DNA of 64,000 bases, taken from the NCBI RefSeq assembly GCF_003075095.1, contig NZ_QCZF01000009.1, positions 62,001-126,000 of the forward strand, in the 5' to 3' direction. Both the position numbers and the translations under genes were made by a program. This DNA is from Blastococcus litoris. Lineage in GTDB: Bacteria; Actinomycetota; Actinomycetes; Mycobacteriales; Geodermatophilaceae. Positions 29,431 through 40,909 of the stretch are shown one piece after another. The first letter of the stretch is position 1. Every line of letters begins with the position of its first letter. A model generated the notes under the pieces. It ran no database searches. It worked only from the letters and a program-made list of their open reading frames with translations, and was not told where the DNA came from.

Positions 29431-30846
29431 ATGTCCCGCCGCGCGAAGATCGTCTGCACCCTCGGACCTGCCACCAGTTCGCTGGAGCAGATCACCTCCC
29501 TCGTCGAGGCAGGGATGGACGTCGCCCGGCTGAACTTCAGCCACGGCGCCCACGAGCACCACGCCACCGCGTACGGCAACGTGCGGCAGGCCTCGGACTC
29601 CACCGGTCACGCCGTCGCCGTCCTGGCCGACCTGCAGGGCCCCAAGATCCGGCTGGGCACCTTCGCCGACGGGCCGGTCGAGTGGCCGACCGGGGCGCAG
29701 GTCTGCATCACCGTCGAGGACGTGCAGGGCACCGCCGAGCGGGTCTCCACGACGTACAAGAACCTGTCCGACGACGTCCGGGTCGGCGACCGCCTGCTCG
29801 TCGACGACGGCAAGCTCGCGCTGACCGTCGTCCGCGTCGAGGGGCCCGACGTCTTCTGCCTGGTGGTCGAGGGCGGCGAGGTCTCCAACAACAAGGGGCT
29901 GTCGCTGCCCGGCGTCGCCGTCAGCGTGCCGGCCCTCTCGGACAAGGACGAGGAGGACCTGCGCTTCGCGCTGCAGCTGGGCGTCGACTTCATCGCCCTG
30001 TCCTTCGTCCGCTCGCCGGACGACGTCGAGCTGGTGCGCGACATCATGCGCCAGGAGGACATCACCGTCCCGGTGATCGCCAAGCTCGAGAAGCCGGAGG
30101 CGGTCGAGAACCTCGAGGCGATCGTCGAGGCCTTCGACGGCATCATGGTCGCCCGCGGCGACCTCGGCGTGGAGCTGGCCCTCGAGCAGGTGCCGCTGGT
30201 GCAGAAGCGGGCGATCCAGGCAGCGCGCGAGCGCAACAAGCCGGTCATCGTCGCCACCCAGATGCTCGAGTCCATGATCCAGAACTCGCGGCCCACGCGC
30301 GCCGAGGCCTCCGACGTCGCCAACGCCGTTCTCGACGGGGCCGACGCGGTGATGCTGTCCGGCGAGACCTCCGTCGGCGCCCACCCGATCGGCGCGGTGC
30401 GGACGATGGAGCGGATCATCGACGCCGTCGAGAGCGACCAGCTGTGGGTGCCCGACGTGGTCCGGCGCTCCCGGTCGCGCTCGGGCGCCATCGTGCGCGC
30501 GGCCCGCGACATCAGCGAGAGCCTCGACGTGAAGGCGCTCGCCACGTTCACGCAGACCGGCGAGACCGCTCGCCGGCTCGCCGCCCTGCACCCGCGCCAG
30601 CCGCTGCTCGCCTTCACCGTCGACGCGCGGGTGCGCAGCCAGCTGGCGCTGTCGTGGGGCGTCGAGACGTTCCTGGTGCCGATGGTCGAGCACACCGACG
30701 ACATGGTCGACCAGGTCGACTTCTCCCTGCTGTCGATCGGCCGGCTGAAGGTCGGCGACCGCGTCGTCGTCGTCGCCGGCAGCCCGCCCAACACGGTGGG
30801 CTCGACCAACCTGATCCGCGTGCACGAGGTGGGCACCGACTCGTGA
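29431..30846 (+). CDS. pyk: Pyruvate kinase
   Basis: At 471 residues this is full length. It converts phosphoenolpyruvate and ADP to pyruvate and ATP. It has ARLNFSHG (about residue 32), the B-domain between about 70 and 170, the catalytic Lys region IAKLEKPEAVENL, the metal motif MVARGDLGVEL, TQMLESMI and MLSGETSVG. The C-terminal domain (about 340-471) is the allosteric domain. The ATG has a leaderless -10. The stop overlaps tesB by four bases. Confidence 0.97.
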   Translation: MSRRAKIVCTLGPATSSLEQITSLVEAGMDVARLNFSHGAHEHHATAYGNVRQASDSTGHAVAVLADLQGPKIRLGTFADGPVEWPTGAQVCITVEDVQGTAERVSTTYKNLSDDVRVGDRLLVDDGKLALTVVRVEGPDVFCLVVEGGEVSNNKGLSLPGVAVSVPALSDKDEEDLRFALQLGVDFIALSFVRSPDDVELVRDIMRQEDITVPVIAKLEKPEAVENLEAIVEAFDGIMVARGDLGVELALEQVPLVQKRAIQAARERNKPVIVATQMLESMIQNSRPTRAEASDVANAVLDGADAVMLSGETSVGAHPIGAVRTMERIIDAVESDQLWVPDVVRRSRSRSGAIVRAARDISESLDVKALATFTQTGETARRLAALHPRQPLLAFTVDARVRSQLALSWGVETFLVPMVEHTDDMVDQVDFSLLSIGRLKVGDRVVVVAGSPPNTVGSTNLIRVHEVGTDS

Positions 30847-33604: not shown

Positions 33605-33610
33605 TAGGCT
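33605..33610 (+). promoter_or_regulatory. -10 element, leaderless response regulator promoter
   Basis: TAGGCT lies 7 bases before the GTG at 33618. Confidence 0.55.
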
Positions 33611-33617
33611 TCCGCCC

Positions 33618-34241
33618 GTGAGCAGCGAGACGATCCGGGTCATCATCGCCGAGGACGAGGCCCTCATCCGCCTCGACCTCAAGGAGATGCTCGAGGAGGA
33701 GGGCTACTCCGTCGTCGCCGAGGTGGGGGACGGCCAGCAGGCCGTGGACCGCGCCACCGAGCTGCGGCCGGACCTGGTCATCCTCGACATCCAGATGCCC
33801 GTGCTCGACGGGTTGTCGGCCGCCGAGCAGATCGCGTCCGCCCGCGTCGCGCCCGTCATCGTGCTCACCGCCTTCAGCCAGCGGGAGCTGGTGGAACGGG
33901 CGCGTGACGCGGGTGCCATGGCCTACCTCGTGAAGCCCTTCTCCAAGAACGACCTGGTCCCGGCCATCGAGGTCGCGCGGGCGCGATTCACCGAGATGAC
34001 GGCGCTGGACGGCGAGGTGCGGACGCTCGAGGAGCGGCTGGAGACCCGGAAGGTCGTCGAGAAGGCCAAGGGGCAGCTGATGGCCGAGCAGGGCATCACC
34101 GAGGCCGAGGCGTTCCGCTGGATCCAGCGGACCGCGATGAACCAGCGGACGTCGATGAAGGCCCTGGCCCAGTCGATCATCGACGCGGGCGCCGTCGCCG
34201 ACGCCGTCCCGGGTGCGACGGGCGAGGGCCCGACCGCCTGA
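33618..34241 (+). CDS. pdtaR: ANTAR-domain response regulator (PdtaR/AmiR-NasT type)
   Basis: A 207-residue protein. The N-terminal receiver domain has the acidic pair AEDE, the phospho-acceptor Asp in VILDIQMP, the Thr in LTAF and the Lys in VKPF. The C-terminal ANTAR domain (about residues 130-190) has the RKVVEKAKGQLM and EAFRWIQRTAMNQRTSM signature that binds RNA hairpins and antiterminates. This matches mycobacterial PdtaR, which partners the histidine kinase PdtaS. No kinase is in the window. The GTG at 33618 follows its own -10 hexamer. Confidence 0.93.
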   Translation: MSSETIRVIIAEDEALIRLDLKEMLEEEGYSVVAEVGDGQQAVDRATELRPDLVILDIQMPVLDGLSAAEQIASARVAPVIVLTAFSQRELVERARDAGAMAYLVKPFSKNDLVPAIEVARARFTEMTALDGEVRTLEERLETRKVVEKAKGQLMAEQGITEAEAFRWIQRTAMNQRTSMKALAQSIIDAGAVADAVPGATGEGPTA

Positions 34242-34461: not shown

Positions 34462-35790
34462 ATGCGCACTGGCACCACTGCCCGCAGCATCGCCCTCGCC
34501 GGTGCCGCCCTGCTCGCTCTCACCGCCTGTGGCGGCGGCAGCGACGACGAGGGTGACACCGGCTCGGCCGACAGCGGTGAGAAGCAGGTCAACATCTACG
34601 GCACCGACGGCAACATGGGTAACGCCCTCGGCGAGGACTTCTCCGAAGAGGGTGCCCTGGCCGGCATGAAGGGCACCACGCCCCTCACCGACCTGTCGTC
34701 GGACTTCAAGGACCGGCTGCTCGCGGTCGACCCCGAGCTGCAGGACTACAACTACGCGGGTGAGACCTACGACGCCGTGGTCCTGACGGCGCTGGCGGCC
34801 CAGGCGGCCGGCACCAACCAGGCCAACACGTTCAAGGACTACGTCAACGGTCTGACCTTCGGTGGCGACGCCTGCACCGACTACGCCAGCTGCGCCGAGA
34901 TCCTGGCCGGCGGCGGCAACGTCGACTACGACGGTGCGTCGGGCCCGCTGAGCTTCGCCGACGCCGGTGAGCCGGCCGAGGCCAGCTTCGGCATCCTCCA
35001 GTTCGGTGACGACAACACCCTCGACGACGACGCCACGGAGTTCGTGCTCGCCGGCGACGAGGCCAACGCCGCCACCGACGAGGGCCCGGACCCGGTCCCG
35101 ACCGCCACGGCCGGCGCTCCGCTGGTCATCGGCACCCTGCTCCCGCTGACCGGGAACCTCGCGTTCCTCGGCCCGCCGGAGGTCGCCGGTGCCAAGCTCG
35201 CCGTCCAGGACATCAACGAGGCCGGCGGCGTCTTCGGGCAGCCCGTCCAGCTCGTCGAGGGTGACTCCGGCGACGCCTCGACCGACACCGCCACGCAGAC
35301 CGTCGACCGCCTGCTCCAGTCCGGCGTCAACGCGATCGTCGGTGCCGCGTCCTCGGGCGTGAGCCTCACCGTCATCGACGCCATCACGCAGGCCGGCGTC
35401 ATGCAGATCTCCCCGGCGAACACGTCCGACCAGTTCACGACCTACAACGACAACGGGCTGTACTTCCGCACGGCCCCGCCGGACACGCTGCAGGCTCGGG
35501 CCCTGGCCGACCTGATCATCGAGGACGGCAACAACACGGTCGGGATCCTGGCCCTCAACGACCCGTACGGCACGGGTCTGGCGGAGAACACCCTCAACAA
35601 CCTGGTTGACGCGGGTCTCTCCGAGGACGACATCCAGAGCATCACCTACGACCCGCAGGCGGCGAACTTCGACTCCGAGGTCCAGCGGATGGTGGACTTC
35701 AACCCCGACGCCATCGTGGTCATCGGTTTCGAGGAGTCCTCGCGGATCCTCGAGGGCCTCAACGCGAACGGCGTCGGCCCGCAGCGTTGA
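34462..35790 (+). CDS. Branched-chain amino acid-type ABC substrate-binding lipoprotein, circularly permuted
   Basis: A 442-residue lipoprotein with lipobox LTAC (Cys23). The two halves of a type I periplasmic-binding fold are in reversed order. Residues 41-198 (from KQVNIYGTDGN to SGPLSFADAGEP and LQFGDDNT) match what is normally the C-terminal half of LivK-like proteins. A Pro/Thr/Ala linker (199-218) follows. Residues 219-442 then start with VIGTLLPLTGNLAFLGP, which is normally the N-terminus, and stop at LNANGVGPQR, where the usual protein would continue into KQV. GGGAG precedes the ATG. The liv permease and ATPase genes lie just downstream on the other strand, so it probably feeds that transporter. 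Confidence 0.88.
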   Translation: MRTGTTARSIALAGAALLALTACGGGSDDEGDTGSADSGEKQVNIYGTDGNMGNALGEDFSEEGALAGMKGTTPLTDLSSDFKDRLLAVDPELQDYNYAGETYDAVVLTALAAQAAGTNQANTFKDYVNGLTFGGDACTDYASCAEILAGGGNVDYDGASGPLSFADAGEPAEASFGILQFGDDNTLDDDATEFVLAGDEANAATDEGPDPVPTATAGAPLVIGTLLPLTGNLAFLGPPEVAGAKLAVQDINEAGGVFGQPVQLVEGDSGDASTDTATQTVDRLLQSGVNAIVGAASSGVSLTVIDAITQAGVMQISPANTSDQFTTYNDNGLYFRTAPPDTLQARALADLIIEDGNNTVGILALNDPYGTGLAENTLNNLVDAGLSEDDIQSITYDPQAANFDSEVQRMVDFNPDAIVVIGFEESSRILEGLNANGVGPQR

Positions 35791-36600: not shown

Positions 36601-37455
36601 TCAGGTGGCCTTGGCCAGCGTCCCGAGGTAGAGCTCGATGACCTTCGGGTCGTGCATCAGCGACTCCCCGGTGTTCGTGTAGGCGTTCCGCCCCTGGTCC
36701 AGGACGTAGCCGCGGTCGCAGATCTGCAGGCACCGGCGCGCGTTCTGCTCGACCATGATGATCGAGACGCCCGTCGCGTTGATCCGGCGGCAGCGGATGA
36801 AGACCTCGTCCTGGTACGCGGGGGAGAGGCCGGCCGACGGCTCGTCGAGCAGCAGCACCGACGGGTCCATCATCAGCGCCCGGCCCATCGCGACCATCTG
36901 CCGCTCACCGCCCGACAGCGTCCCGGCCTTCGCCTTGCGGCGCTCCCCGAGCAGCGGGAAGAGGTCCACGACGTAGTCGAAGCGGTCCTTGAACGTCTTC
37001 GGCCGCAGGTAGACGCCCATCTGCATGTTCTCCTCGAGGGTGAGCGAGGGGAACACGTTGTTGTTCTGCGGCACGTAGCCGACCCCGAGCGACACGAGCC
37101 GGTGGGCCGGCGCCGAGGTGATGTCCTCTCCGCGCAGCGTCACGGTGCCCGAGCGCACCGGGATCAGCCCGAAGAGCGCCTTCAGCAGCGTCGACTTGCC
37201 GGCACCGTTGGGGCCGATGATGCCGACCAGCTCGCCGTCCTGGAGGTAGAAGTCGCAGCCCCGCAGGATGTTGACGCCGGGCACGTACCCCGCGACCAGG
37301 TCGTCGGCACGCACGAGCGCGCCTTCCGCCAGGCGCACGTGCTCCTCGCGGGTGGCTGCCTTCTCCGCGGGCGACATCTCCGTCGTCGTCGACGCGCTGT
37401 CGGCGCGGGTCAGGTCCTCGCCGGACTCGTCGACCGTGAACAAGGGGTCGCTCAT
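36601..37455 (-). CDS. livF: Branched-chain amino acid-type ABC transporter ATPase LivF
   Basis: A 284-residue ATPase. Walker A GPNGAGKS, Q-loop VPQNNNVFPSLT, signature LSGGERQ and Walker B LLLDEPSAG are intact, and the C-terminal LYLGTLAKA is typical of LivF. The first 45 residues are an acidic, Thr/Ser-rich extension not needed for the fold. It is the last gene of the livHMGF unit, and its ATG overlaps the livG stop by four bases. The substrate may be branched-chain amino acids, amides or urea, which share this family. Confidence 0.93.
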   Translation of the reverse strand: MSDPLFTVDESGEDLTRADSASTTTEMSPAEKAATREEHVRLAEGALVRADDLVAGYVPGVNILRGCDFYLQDGELVGIIGPNGAGKSTLLKALFGLIPVRSGTVTLRGEDITSAPAHRLVSLGVGYVPQNNNVFPSLTLEENMQMGVYLRPKTFKDRFDYVVDLFPLLGERRKAKAGTLSGGERQMVAMGRALMMDPSVLLLDEPSAGLSPAYQDEVFIRCRRINATGVSIIMVEQNARRCLQICDRGYVLDQGRNAYTNTGESLMHDPKVIELYLGTLAKAT

Positions 37456-38555
37456 CGGTCGTTCCTCCGGTCGTCTGCGGACGCGGTCTCGGTGCTCAGG
37501 ACCTCGCCGTCGGTCGCCTCCTCGCGGGCGATCGCCCGCTCGGCCTGGGCGAGGACCTGGTCCTCCTCCTCGACCGTCAGCGGAGCGTCGTGGTGGGCAC
37601 CGAGGTAGGCGTCGACCACGGCCTGGTTCTGGCTGATGGACTCCGGTGGCCCCTCGGCGATGATCCGGCCCGCAGCCATGACCACCACCCAGTCGCTGAT
37701 GTCCCGGACGACGTCCATGTCGTGCTCGACGAAGATCACCGTCATGCCCTGCTCGCGCAGGTCCTTGACGTGCCCGAGCAGGCTCTGCGTCAGCGCCGGG
37801 TTCACCCCGGCCATCGGCTCGTCGAGCATGACGACCTGCGGGTCGCTCATGAGCGCCCGCGCCATCTCCAGCAGCTTGCGCTGACCACCGGACAGGGTTC
37901 CGGCGAAGTCGTCCTTCTTGGCATCCAGCTTGAACCGCTTGAGCAGGTCCATCGCCTTCTCGGTGTTGGCCTTCTCCTGCGCCCGCCAGGTGCCGGGCAC
38001 CAGCGCGCGGAAGAAGCTCTCACCGCGCTGCCCCTGCGCGCCGAGCAGCATGTTCTGCAGCACGGTGAGGCGGGACAGCGCCTTGGTCAGCTGGAACGTC
38101 CGGACCACACCGAGCCGCGCCACCTGGTGCGGCGACATCTTGCCCAGGTCCTTGCCGTTGAACGACCAGGTCCCCGTGTCGGGCTGGTCGAACCCGGTCA
38201 GCAGGTTGAACAGCGTCGTCTTGCCGGCACCGTTCGGACCGATCAGGCCGGTGATGCCGCCGCGCTGGACCTCCAGGTGGTCGACCGCGACGGCGGTCAG
38301 GCCACCGAAGGTCCGCGTGACGCCGTCGACGACGACGGCCGCATCCGGCTTGGCGACACCGACCTCCCACGGGAGGTCCTTGAGCGCGGTCTGCGCCAAG
38401 CGCTGGGGAGCGTCGCCGCTGTGCCAGCCGCCGGACCGCTCCGGTCGGTAGCCGGTCTCGTCGCCGCCGACGCGGGAAGCGCCGGCCCCGGACGAGCCGG
38501 CGGAGGAACCAGCACCGGATGCCGAAGCACCGTGGGGTGTGGGCTCAGCGGGCAT
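37452..38555 (-). CDS. livG: Branched-chain amino acid-type ABC transporter ATPase LivG
   Basis: A 367-residue protein, longer than the usual 255-residue LivG. The first 75 residues are a Gly/Ser/Ala-rich linker (GASASGAGSSAGSSGAGAS) plus YRPERSGGW, and about 35 residues follow the ATPase core. The core has GPNGAGKTT, the LTKALSRLTVLQN loop, LSGGQRKLLEMARALM, MLDEPMAGVNP and the switch His in VEHDMD. It pairs with LivF. The ATG overlaps the end of livM by 11 bases, so the long N-terminus could be partly untranslated if an internal start is used. Confidence 0.92.
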   Translation of the reverse strand: MPAEPTPHGASASGAGSSAGSSGAGASRVGGDETGYRPERSGGWHSGDAPQRLAQTALKDLPWEVGVAKPDAAVVVDGVTRTFGGLTAVAVDHLEVQRGGITGLIGPNGAGKTTLFNLLTGFDQPDTGTWSFNGKDLGKMSPHQVARLGVVRTFQLTKALSRLTVLQNMLLGAQGQRGESFFRALVPGTWRAQEKANTEKAMDLLKRFKLDAKKDDFAGTLSGGQRKLLEMARALMSDPQVVMLDEPMAGVNPALTQSLLGHVKDLREQGMTVIFVEHDMDVVRDISDWVVVMAAGRIIAEGPPESISQNQAVVDAYLGAHHDAPLTVEEEDQVLAQAERAIAREEATDGEVLSTETASADDRRNDR

Positions 38556-39543
38556 CGAGCATCACCTCTCGTCGATCGCCGAAGATGCCCTGCGGGCGGA
38601 AGATCAGCAGCAGCATCAGTCCGACACCCACCAGGATGAACCGGATCTGCGCCACGTCGGTGGACGACAGCAGGTCCTCGGGGATGATGCCGTTGCTGAT
38701 CAGCAGGCGGAGCCCGGTGTCGGCGAACTGCAGGATGAACAGCAGGATCATCGCGCCCACGACCGGACCGAGGACGCGGGCGGCCCCGCCCAGGATCAGG
38801 GCGGCGTAGGCGAGGAACGTGTTGGCGTTCTGGTACTGGTCCGGCACGGCCGACCCGGTGCCCACGGCGTAGACCATGCCGCCGAACGCACCGAGCACAC
38901 CGCCCAGCACGAGCGCCTGCATCTTGTAGACGTAGACGTTCTTGCCCAGCGAGCGGACGGCGTCCTCGTCCTCGCGGATGGACTTCAGCACGCGTCCCCA
39001 CGGGCTGCGCATGAGCGCCCACACCAGGAGGCTGGCCAGGATCACCAGGAGCCAGCCGATCAGCGCCACCCAGAGCTCACCGCCCGACCAGCTGGTGCCG
39101 AGGATCCGGTACCGCTGGGAGGTGTTCCACGGTGCCAGCGAGATGAAGTCCTGGTTGAAGCCGGACAGCCCTCGCGTGCCGTTGGTGACCGGCGTCGCCG
39201 AGACCGACCGGAACAGCAGCCGTAGCCCCTCGGCCGTCGCGATGGTCGCGATGGCCAGGTAGTCGGCGCGCAGGCGCAGCGTCGGCAGACCGAGCAGCAG
39301 GGCCAGCACGACGGCGGCCGCGACGCCGACGAGGACACCGACCCAGAAGTTCAGGCCCCACTTGCTCACCGAGATCGCGATGCCGAACCCACCGAGCATC
39401 GCGAAGGCGATCTGGCCGAAGTTCAGCAGCCCGGCGTAACCGAACTGCACGTTGATGCCGATGGCCAGCAGCGCGAAGAAGATCGCCTGGAACCCGAGCG
39501 CGGACTTGCCGGCGACGGCCAGGGCGTTGACGAGGTCAGCCAT
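38545..39543 (-). CDS. livM: Branched-chain amino acid-type ABC permease LivM
   Basis: A 332-residue permease with about nine to ten helices. It has the GYAGLLNFGQIAF segment near the N-terminus, the [22 protein letters not shown] region and the cytoplasmic EAA-like loop SPWGRVLKSIREDEDAVRSLGKN. It heterodimerises with LivH. It begins four bases after livH and runs into livG. Confidence 0.94.
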   Translation of the reverse strand: MADLVNALAVAGKSALGFQAIFFALLAIGINVQFGYAGLLNFGQIAFAMLGGFGIAISVSKWGLNFWVGVLVGVAAAVVLALLLGLPTLRLRADYLAIATIATAEGLRLLFRSVSATPVTNGTRGLSGFNQDFISLAPWNTSQRYRILGTSWSGGELWVALIGWLLVILASLLVWALMRSPWGRVLKSIREDEDAVRSLGKNVYVYKMQALVLGGVLGAFGGMVYAVGTGSAVPDQYQNANTFLAYAALILGGAARVLGPVVGAMILLFILQFADTGLRLLISNGIIPEDLLSSTDVAQIRFILVGVGLMLLLIFRPQGIFGDRREVMLDAR

Positions 39544-39547
39544 CGCC

Positions 39548-40909
39548 TCAGCCGATCCGTACCCGGCTGCCCAGGATGCCCTGGGGCCTGATGACGAGGA
39601 TGACGATCAAGAGCAGCAGCCCTCCGACGTACTTCACGTCATTCGGAATGACGAGGGTCGACATCTGCACGAACACGCCCACGATGAGGCTCCCGACGAG
39701 CGCGCCGTAGGCGGTGCCCAGACCGCCCAGCGTGACGCCGGCGAACATGAGCAGCAGCAGGCGGAAGCCCATGTCCCACTGCACCTGGTCGGACAGCCCC
39801 AGGAGCACGCCGCCCAGCGCCGCCAGCGCCCCACCCATCATCCAGACCACCAGGATCACCCGGTTGACGTCGATGCCGGAGGAGGCAGCCAGGTCGCGGT
39901 TGTCGGAGACGGCCCGCATGGCCTTGCCGATCTTGGTGCGCTGGAGCATCACCGCGACCAGCACGAGGACGACGACGGAGATGACCACCGACACGAGGTC
40001 CTTGTTGGTCATCGTGAACAGGCCGTAGTCGACGGCGCGCCCGCCCTGGTAGCCCTGGTACGGGCTGGACCGCCCGCCGTAGATGACCTGGATCAGGTAG
40101 CGCAGCAGGAGCGACAGGCCGATCGAGACGACGAGCGCGGCGATCAGGCCGGTACCGCGCCGGCGCAGCGGCCGCCACAGGCCGAGCTCGTTCAACGCGC
40201 CGACCGCGGCGCCGACGATCATCGCGAGGATCGTCGCGACGATCAGGTTCACCCCGCCCGAGACGTTGATGTACCAGGCGGCGACCGCGCCGATGGTCAC
40301 CAGCTCGCCGTGCGCGAAGTTCGTCAGCCCCGTCGTCCCGAAGATCAGGGACAGGCCGACGGCGGCCATCGCGATCAGGAGGCCGAACCGGATGCCGTCG
40401 ACGAGCAGCTGCACGGCGCGCACCGAGCCGCCGCCGGAGTTCCGGCTGCCGTCGCTGAGGCCGATGATCACCGCCTGCCGGCGGCCCTCGTCGACGGTGA
40501 CGGTCCGGTTGTCCTCACCGGCCAGCTCCACGCCGTCGGGCAGGTCGTCGGCGTCGATGGAGACCGTGTACTCACCCGGCCCGGGCAGGTCGACCGACCA
40601 GCGACCGTTCTCGTCGGTCTCGACCTCGTCGATCCGCTCGCCGCTCGCGTCCTCGACGAGGACCTCGACGCCCTCGATCGGGCCGCTCCGGCTGGTCTGC
40701 AGGGTTCCGGCCACCTGCTCGCTCGCCTCTTCGGCCTGGGCGACGCCCGGCGTGAAGGCCGCCAGGCCGAGTCCGAAGGCCAGGACCAGCAGCAGCCGGA
40801 CGACGACGTGCCCTCCGGGCGGCCGACCGCGACCTCCCGGTCGCTGCAGGAACCCGGCGGGTCCCGATCGTCGACCGTGCCGGCGGGCACGGTTTCCCGC
40901 GTGCGTCAC
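39548..40909 (-). CDS. livH: Branched-chain amino acid-type ABC permease LivH with extracytoplasmic N-terminal domain
   Basis: A 453-residue protein. A basic N-terminus and hydrophobic segment (about residues 35-52), with a likely cleavage at AQA (about 59), form a signal peptide. A beta-sandwich resembling carboxypeptidase-regulatory/Cna-B-like domains (about 65-150; GPIEGVEVLVEDASG, DENGRWSVDLPGPGEYTV) follows. The normal LivH permease starts at about 166, with GTTGLTNFAHGELVTIGA and the EAA-like loop TKIGKAMRAVSDNRDLAASSGID. The added domain would face outside and could contact the binding protein. The GTG at 40909 has GGGAGG four bases upstream. Confidence 0.92.
   Translation of the reverse strand: MTHAGNRARRHGRRSGPAGFLQRPGGRGRPPGGHVVVRLLLVLAFGLGLAAFTPGVAQAEEASEQVAGTLQTSRSGPIEGVEVLVEDASGERIDEVETDENGRWSVDLPGPGEYTVSIDADDLPDGVELAGEDNRTVTVDEGRRQAVIIGLSDGSRNSGGGSVRAVQLLVDGIRFGLLIAMAAVGLSLIFGTTGLTNFAHGELVTIGAVAAWYINVSGGVNLIVATILAMIVGAAVGALNELGLWRPLRRRGTGLIAALVVSIGLSLLLRYLIQVIYGGRSSPYQGYQGGRAVDYGLFTMTNKDLVSVVISVVVLVLVAVMLQRTKIGKAMRAVSDNRDLAASSGIDVNRVILVVWMMGGALAALGGVLLGLSDQVQWDMGFRLLLLMFAGVTLGGLGTAYGALVGSLIVGVFVQMSTLVIPNDVKYVGGLLLLIVILVIRPQGILGSRVRIG

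Follow-up and report, generated by a model that had tools for sequence, protein, structure and literature searches.

Can a bacterial substrate-binding protein carry the two halves of its fold in reversed order, and if so, how often has such an order arisen? The question is raised by one gene in a stretch of 64,000 nucleotides of Blastococcus litoris DNA (hereafter the window), which an initial annotation had described as a circularly permuted LivK-type lipoprotein. We found that this gene encodes the C-terminal part of a normal LivJ/LivK-type protein ahead of the N-terminal part. Judged from sequence comparison, it probably encodes a functional LivJ/LivK-type amino-acid-binding lipoprotein, a permuted subunit of a LivH-LivM-LivG-LivF transporter, whose order of halves would have arisen repeatedly by duplication. 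The gene and its parts are:

34462..35790, + strand: circularly permuted LivJ/LivK-type substrate-binding lipoprotein, 442 aa (Pfam, tblastn order, structure model)
34462..34527, + strand: lipoprotein signal peptide, residues 1-22, LTA followed by Cys23 (read from the sequence)
34528..34530, + strand: lipobox cysteine, residue 23, predicted lipid anchor (alignment of permuted sequences)
34531..34581, + strand: disordered tether, residues 24-40 (low predicted local distance difference test score, pLDDT; ratio of non-synonymous to synonymous substitution rates, dN/dS)
34582..35055, + strand: residues 41-198, corresponding to the C-terminal part in normal-order proteins and placed first here (ANF_receptor 226-351; tblastn order)
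34606..34608, + strand: Asp49 of YGTDGN, equivalent of Asp226 in the Atu2422 receptor (alignment via the normal ortholog L061)
35056..35115, + strand: Pro/Thr/Ala linker, residues 199-218, bridging the original C and N termini (sequence, relatives, model)
35116..35787, + strand: residues 219-442, corresponding to the N-terminal part in normal-order proteins and placed last here (Peripla_BP_6 2-216 of 343; LivJ-type crystals)

Order of the two halves

The frame at 34462-35790 (+) is open throughout its 442 codons, and the normal lipoprotein signal that had been claimed for it is present, with a signal peptide, the lipobox LTAC with Cys23 and a short tether. Residues A22, C23 and G24 were invariant across 19 aligned permuted sequences (window protein included), as was Asp49 (n=19), an acidic residue that we take to bind the ligand through a predicted contact with its ammonium group. 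The frame and both parts are under purifying selection, and in 10 of 12 comparisons residues 1-40 had a higher dN/dS than the C-part.

A Pfam search placed positions 2-216 of the 343-position Peripla_BP_6 profile on residues 221-439 (126.5 bits, E 2.5e-36; gathering cut-off 31.7 bits), and the second half of that profile found no match in the protein. The profile is thus not covered along its whole length in the usual order, the remaining homology preceding the matched part: a search with residues 41-198 alone gave a match to positions 226-351 of the 353-position ANF_receptor profile (24.3 bits, slightly below the cut-off of 25.4; E 1.9e-5). Since the half-match to Peripla_BP_6 stands at the end and the end-match to ANF_receptor at the front, the halves are in reversed order, and the initial assignment of residues 41-198 to the usual C-terminal half and of residues 219-442 to the usual N-terminal half was borne out. 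NCBIfam recognized the N-part alone as a binding protein, and in a sequence search against solved structures the best stretches fell within residues 208-438 for all 60 matches listed. The protein ends in GVGPQR-stop and its folded part starts at KQVNIYGTDGN; normal relatives are continuous across this break (for example ...AGVGPQ-DVQTYFVDGN... in L192), in agreement with the earlier remark that the chain stops after GVGPQ at the point where a normal protein runs on. The halves are joined, as had also been proposed, by a Pro/Thr/Ala linker (residues 199-218), the length of which is narrowly kept among relatives.

A scan of one genome per species (84,980 species) returned at least 78 loci. When the halves were located by tblastn, the C-part preceded the N-part in 56 of 56 loci (L004-L059), while the N-part preceded the C-part in 22 of 22 others (L060-L081); the reversed order is far beyond chance. 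No remnant of a lost half was found beside the gene, with one copy per half in L001 and L004-L059 (tblastn, 81 loci). The 22 normal loci were 44-60% identical to the window protein in the N-part and 35-48% in the C-part, a second, remote copy at L078 being lower, and by their record titles belong to Microbispora, Planotetraspora, Actinoplanes or Paractinoplanes, Nocardioides, Saccharomonospora, Myceligenerans, Curtobacterium and two Actinomycetota metagenome-assembled genomes. The titles of the permuted loci name Blastococcus, Geodermatophilus, Modestobacter, Klenkia or Geodermatophilaceae, with the exception of L004. This last record bears the title Bacillus sp. AZ43 (unverified organism); its permuted gene is 91% identical and has the neighbours seen in the window, and the strain is probably a mislabelled Blastococcus-like one.

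The searches were extended to families coded f1 (the window's own), f16, f29, f37, f44 and f76. Among 397 genomes of the order, 68 of the 77 f1 genomes listed had a match at E 1e-20 and nine had none; each of the 68 matches started at query residue 1 or 2 and ended at 440 or 442, and 11 of these 68 genomes are single-contig assemblies. Full-length matches in f16 were 43-49% identical (among the matches listed). In f37 a full-length permuted relative was found in 21 of 294 genomes, the other listed matches being normal (two pieces) or partial; in f44 the full-length permuted form was present in 10 of 85 genomes, with a high-identity fragment in two more, and in f76 a match ran across the full permuted query in 72 of 200. 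A sample of the phylum (296 genomes) added four permuted cases, in other classes. Within a plasmid collection, 455 of 72,556 records matched and one covered at least 80% of the query, in two pieces.

Cut positions and predicted fold

Residues following the N-part were counted in 199 permuted open reading frames (ORFs; genes fetched twice included) and numbered 1-7 in 159 and 21-25 in 39, the outlier (L276) ending at a contig edge. Counted by their last 150 residues, the distinct genes were 149 permuted and 91 normal; L201-L210 and L300 lie outside both the cut-position counts and the slot counts given below. Cut A, found in the window protein and in groups P1-P4 (groups P1-P5 were named after the first tree), separates ...GVGPQ from the strand YGTDGN. 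Cut B, found in P5 (L211-L214 and relatives), falls after the YGTDGN strand, the protein ending in outline in ...YGVDGNMGNALGEDF-AGK-stop and its chain starting at ALAGMKGT. On the Atu2422 structure (3ipc) the cuts map to about residues 220 and 242, two discrete places about 22 residues apart, and the acidic residue 226 (Asp49 here) lies between them, coming early in the chain of cut-A proteins and late in that of cut-B proteins. The initial annotation had put the cut where the chain crosses between lobes; with the lobe limits and hinge positions that we assumed for 3ipc, it falls instead in a second-lobe loop, about 28 residues short of the point where the chain crosses the hinge again.

The structure model of the window protein is one confident fold, with pLDDT below 50 in residues 1-38. 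On the N-part side, 220 residues superposed on 3ip5 at 2.3 Å, covering parts of both lobes and leaving the C-part outside the superposition; searches of the structure library follow chain order. Of the 50 structural matches listed, two start far before residue 210 (4evq_B at 148 and 4n03 at 115). The predicted amino-acid recognition residues Ser297, Ala319, Thr321 and Asp49 are conserved in the permuted sequences; the LivJ ligand contacts used for comparison are those of PMC6983066, and the acidic contact is general background on these receptors.

Traced on the normal fold, the permuted chain would run from the lipid-anchored cysteine into the second lobe, on to the old C terminus, through the linker of about 20 residues to the old N terminus, and would stop one loop before its starting point. 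Folding, closing around the ligand and docking would be expected to proceed normally in such a protein, and its attachment to the membrane would be via a second-lobe loop, not via the first strand of the first lobe; for the window protein, the ligand, the docking to LivHM and the anchor position are all predictions from sequence.

Trees, genomic slot and tandem copies

To count changes in the order of halves, both parts were aligned separately and then joined in normal order. Identity thinning before each tree took 170 rows to 67 and 241 rows to 62, and gave 46 and 60 rows for two further trees. The remote paralogs L002_0 and L078_1 were dropped from the 46-, 60- and 62-row trees, the long-branch row L077_0 from the 60- and 62-row trees and from the repeat tree of the approximately unbiased (AU) test, and the partial gene L276_0 from the 62-row tree, in which the L297 genes are present as L278 and those of L301 and L302 probably as L296 and L291.

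Permuted forms were scattered among normal ones. In the 46-row IQ-TREE the order of halves changed four times; starred branches forced three of these changes, and a single change was seen in 0 of 200 bootstrap trees. Holding all permuted forms as one clade was 224 log units worse (AU p 6e-53; 2e-58 without the longest row), and it was rejected by the N half alone (p 1.9e-4; two changes forced), by the C half alone (p 1.3e-9; four forced) and by the 62-row tree that includes cut-B forms (p 2e-57; five forced). A single origin of all permuted forms was therefore rejected by AU tests on the whole protein and on each half. Smaller clades were rejected as well: P3+P4 (p 7e-39 with 46 rows, 1.5e-4 with 62 rows, 0.007 for the N half and 0.005 for the C half), all cut-A forms (p 4e-10, 62 rows), P1+P1b+P2+P3 (p 8.8e-7) and P1+P1b+P2+P4 (p 3.5e-35), whereas P1+P1b was not (p 0.31). 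The P4 proteins L145 and L151 were closer to the normal genes of their own family, L192 and L194 (67-71% identity in the N half, 59-65% in the C half), than to P1/P1b (51-54% and 39-50%).

The safe reading is that the order of halves changed at least three times, five not being certain, unless gene conversion between tandem copies misleads. Gains are likelier than reversals because the wider family has its halves in the normal order, and most likely the permutation arose at least three times in Actinomycetota.

Permuted and normal forms share a genomic slot, consisting of pyruvate kinase, pdtaR, the binding protein and converging livF-livG-livM-livH genes. In the window its members are:

29431..30846, + strand: pyruvate kinase, marking the outer end of the conserved slot (named by sequence and general knowledge of the family)
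33606..34241, + strand: response regulator with an ANTAR domain, presumably PdtaR-like, conserved upstream neighbour (start codon provisional)
36601..37455, - strand: LivF-like ATPase, converging (neighbourhood, family search)
37452..38555, - strand: LivG-like ATPase (neighbourhood, family search)
38545..39543, - strand: LivM-like permease (neighbourhood, family search)
39548..40909, - strand: LivH-like permease with an extra N-terminal CarboxypepD_reg domain (neighbourhood, family search)

Counted over distinct genes, pdtaR before and livF after the binding protein were seen in 61 of 73 P1, 1 of 1 P1b, 6 of 13 P3 and 16 of 18 P4 genes and in 42 of 91 normal genes, many of the stretches compared being too short to show both. 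No liv gene or pdtaR was present around two P2 loci (about 7 kb on each side) or in the 15 kb stretches holding the permuted paralogs L204 and L205 (f16) and L206 (f1), and permuted forms may have been put to use outside the slot too.

Tandem copies occur in this slot. Two normal copies were found in L201 (f37), L202 and L203 (f29), and L301 and L302 (f44), and in L297 (f44, G1508) a permuted copy is followed head to tail by a normal one between pdtaR and livF. The stretch of L298 (f76, G1315) has two divergent cut-B copies in tandem and no liv gene. Tandem copies within the slot speak for permutation by duplication, in which the gene would duplicate in tandem, after which one copy would lose its first half and the following copy its second half, leaving a permuted gene; the copies are observed, and the loss steps are what we infer. 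This route is the one proposed for saposin/swaposin and for DNA methyltransferases, with intermediates documented for the latter (PMC3320104), and the tandem copies at the locus resemble it. The present case differs in concerning a secreted, membrane-anchored transport subunit and in the reuse of nearly the same cut at one locus, and also from the DNA methyltransferases in that none of 302 classified ORFs here, a limited sample, was a fused N-C-N-C or partly duplicated intermediate.

Alternative explanations and known cases

Several observations weigh against repeated origins by duplication in the slot, among them the lack of a fused intermediate just mentioned. The N half forces just two changes. 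The clades P1+P1b+P2 (p 0.30), all cut-B forms (p 0.30, 62 rows) and P1+P2+P1b with the cut-B forms minus L211 (p 0.087; 0.017 with L211) were not rejected, apart from the last when L211 was included. The C-part of the window protein and P1 is closer to cut-B forms (53-57% identity) than to the normal L138 (47%), while the N-part of P1 is closer to L138 (65%) than to cut-B forms (54-58%); by the C half, cuts A and B of the window lineage could share one origin. Linkers have a median length of 28-32 in all groups and sequences that differ between groups, and whether the like lengths reflect a shared constraint or a shared origin is undecided. Cut-B genes have livF in 27 of 33 cases and pdtaR in none, none of 11 P2 genes has either pdtaR or livF, this group lying outside the slot, and the counting of changes cannot separate gain from reversal.

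The like linker lengths and the C-half identities would suit one permutation (or one per cut) spread by vertical descent and lateral transfer and living beside normal copies in the slot, with gene conversion between the copies, or reversals, making its products resemble local normal genes. Gene exchange is frequent in Actinobacteria, permuted and normal copies adjoin in L297, and the normal L138 was placed inside the P1/P2 group (46- and 60-row trees). However, each half separately rejects both the single clade and P3+P4, P4 is closest to the normal genes of its own family, the cuts lie at two discrete places, and the permuted copy of L297 (row L278_1) groups with the permuted P3 genes and not with its normal neighbour. 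We therefore regard a single permutation as unlikely.

It is quite improbable that the permuted lipoprotein is an extracellular sensor or scavenger whose altered anchor geometry serves another partner, and not an importer subunit. AmiC, a sensor with the Peripla_BP fold whose partner is an ANTAR-domain protein, is among the structural matches of the window protein; an ANTAR response regulator adjoins the permuted gene, and P2 and second f1 copies lie away from liv genes in the stretches compared. Yet normal and permuted forms alike retain the place next to livFGMH, a search of the window's own genome with this protein returned two remote relatives only (29 and 33% identity), and the PdtaR-like regulator carries a receiver domain of its own.

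It is also quite improbable that the gene joins the C-half of one paralog to the N-half of another, in place of being the rotation of one protein. Tandem paralogs are present in the slot, and permutation by duplication itself draws on two copies; against a fusion, the scattered pattern is seen in the trees of both halves, the halves together make one complete domain, and no ORF had a half twice. Finally, an assembly artefact, in which a tandem pair of normal genes (such pairs exist in the slot in other families) collapsed into a false chimera, had been named at the outset as a refuting outcome and is ruled out by the breadth of occurrence, with the same order in 56 loci and 68 of 77 family genomes, 11 of them single-contig, and by the selection on the frame and both parts.

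Repeated permutation by duplication thus remains our preferred reading, and more tentatively one Actinomycetota transporter locus could be a permutation hot spot, where selection on the geometry of the tether, together with frequent tandem duplication, would have produced the parallelism.

Among known proteins, LivJ/LivK and Atu2422 (Peripla_BP_6; 3ip5, 3ipc, 4n0q, 3td9) have in common with the window protein the family, the fold of the matched part, the predicted contacts and the livFGMH neighbours; the window protein differs from them in its reversed halves, its extra linker and an anchor predicted to sit on the other lobe. TpMglB-2 (Tp0684) of Treponema pallidum, of 'Type Ic / Cluster Bc', is a naturally permuted Type I binding protein for which glucose binding and ligand-induced closing were shown by its authors, who also suggested that anchoring may have favoured the new topology (PMC4990184). 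Like it, the window protein is a lipidated, naturally circularly permuted Type I substrate-binding protein. However, TpMglB-2 is a sugar-binding MglB relative and the window protein belongs to the Leu/Ile/Val-type family; in TpMglB-2 the first three first-lobe strands have moved to the end, whereas the window cut lies in the second lobe, near 3ipc residue 220; and its moved part gave a weak match with a possible source in another gene, whereas here both halves can be recognized in close normal orthologs from the same slot. In the literature covered, with most subscription journals outside its scope, TpMglB-2 was the only natural permuted binding protein found, and no permuted Leu/Ile/Val-type protein and no recurrence at one locus were found.

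Most known natural circular permutations are old, and how they were made can no longer be observed. Here normal and permuted orthologs occupy one slot, with up to 71% identity in one half and with tandem copies persisting, and therefore the route, the cuts that are tolerated and the effect of moving the anchor become testable. Whole-profile annotation can miss permuted proteins, which are visible as half matches, and those described here offer sensor engineering natural designs of permuted Leu/Ile/Val-binding domains.

The CarboxypepD_reg domain of the LivH-like permease covers its residues 65-142 (35.0 bits; cut-off 32.3) and might touch the binding protein. When the permease was compared between loci, the LivH match started at query residue 50-57 in the permuted L207-L209 and at residue 77 in the normal L210.
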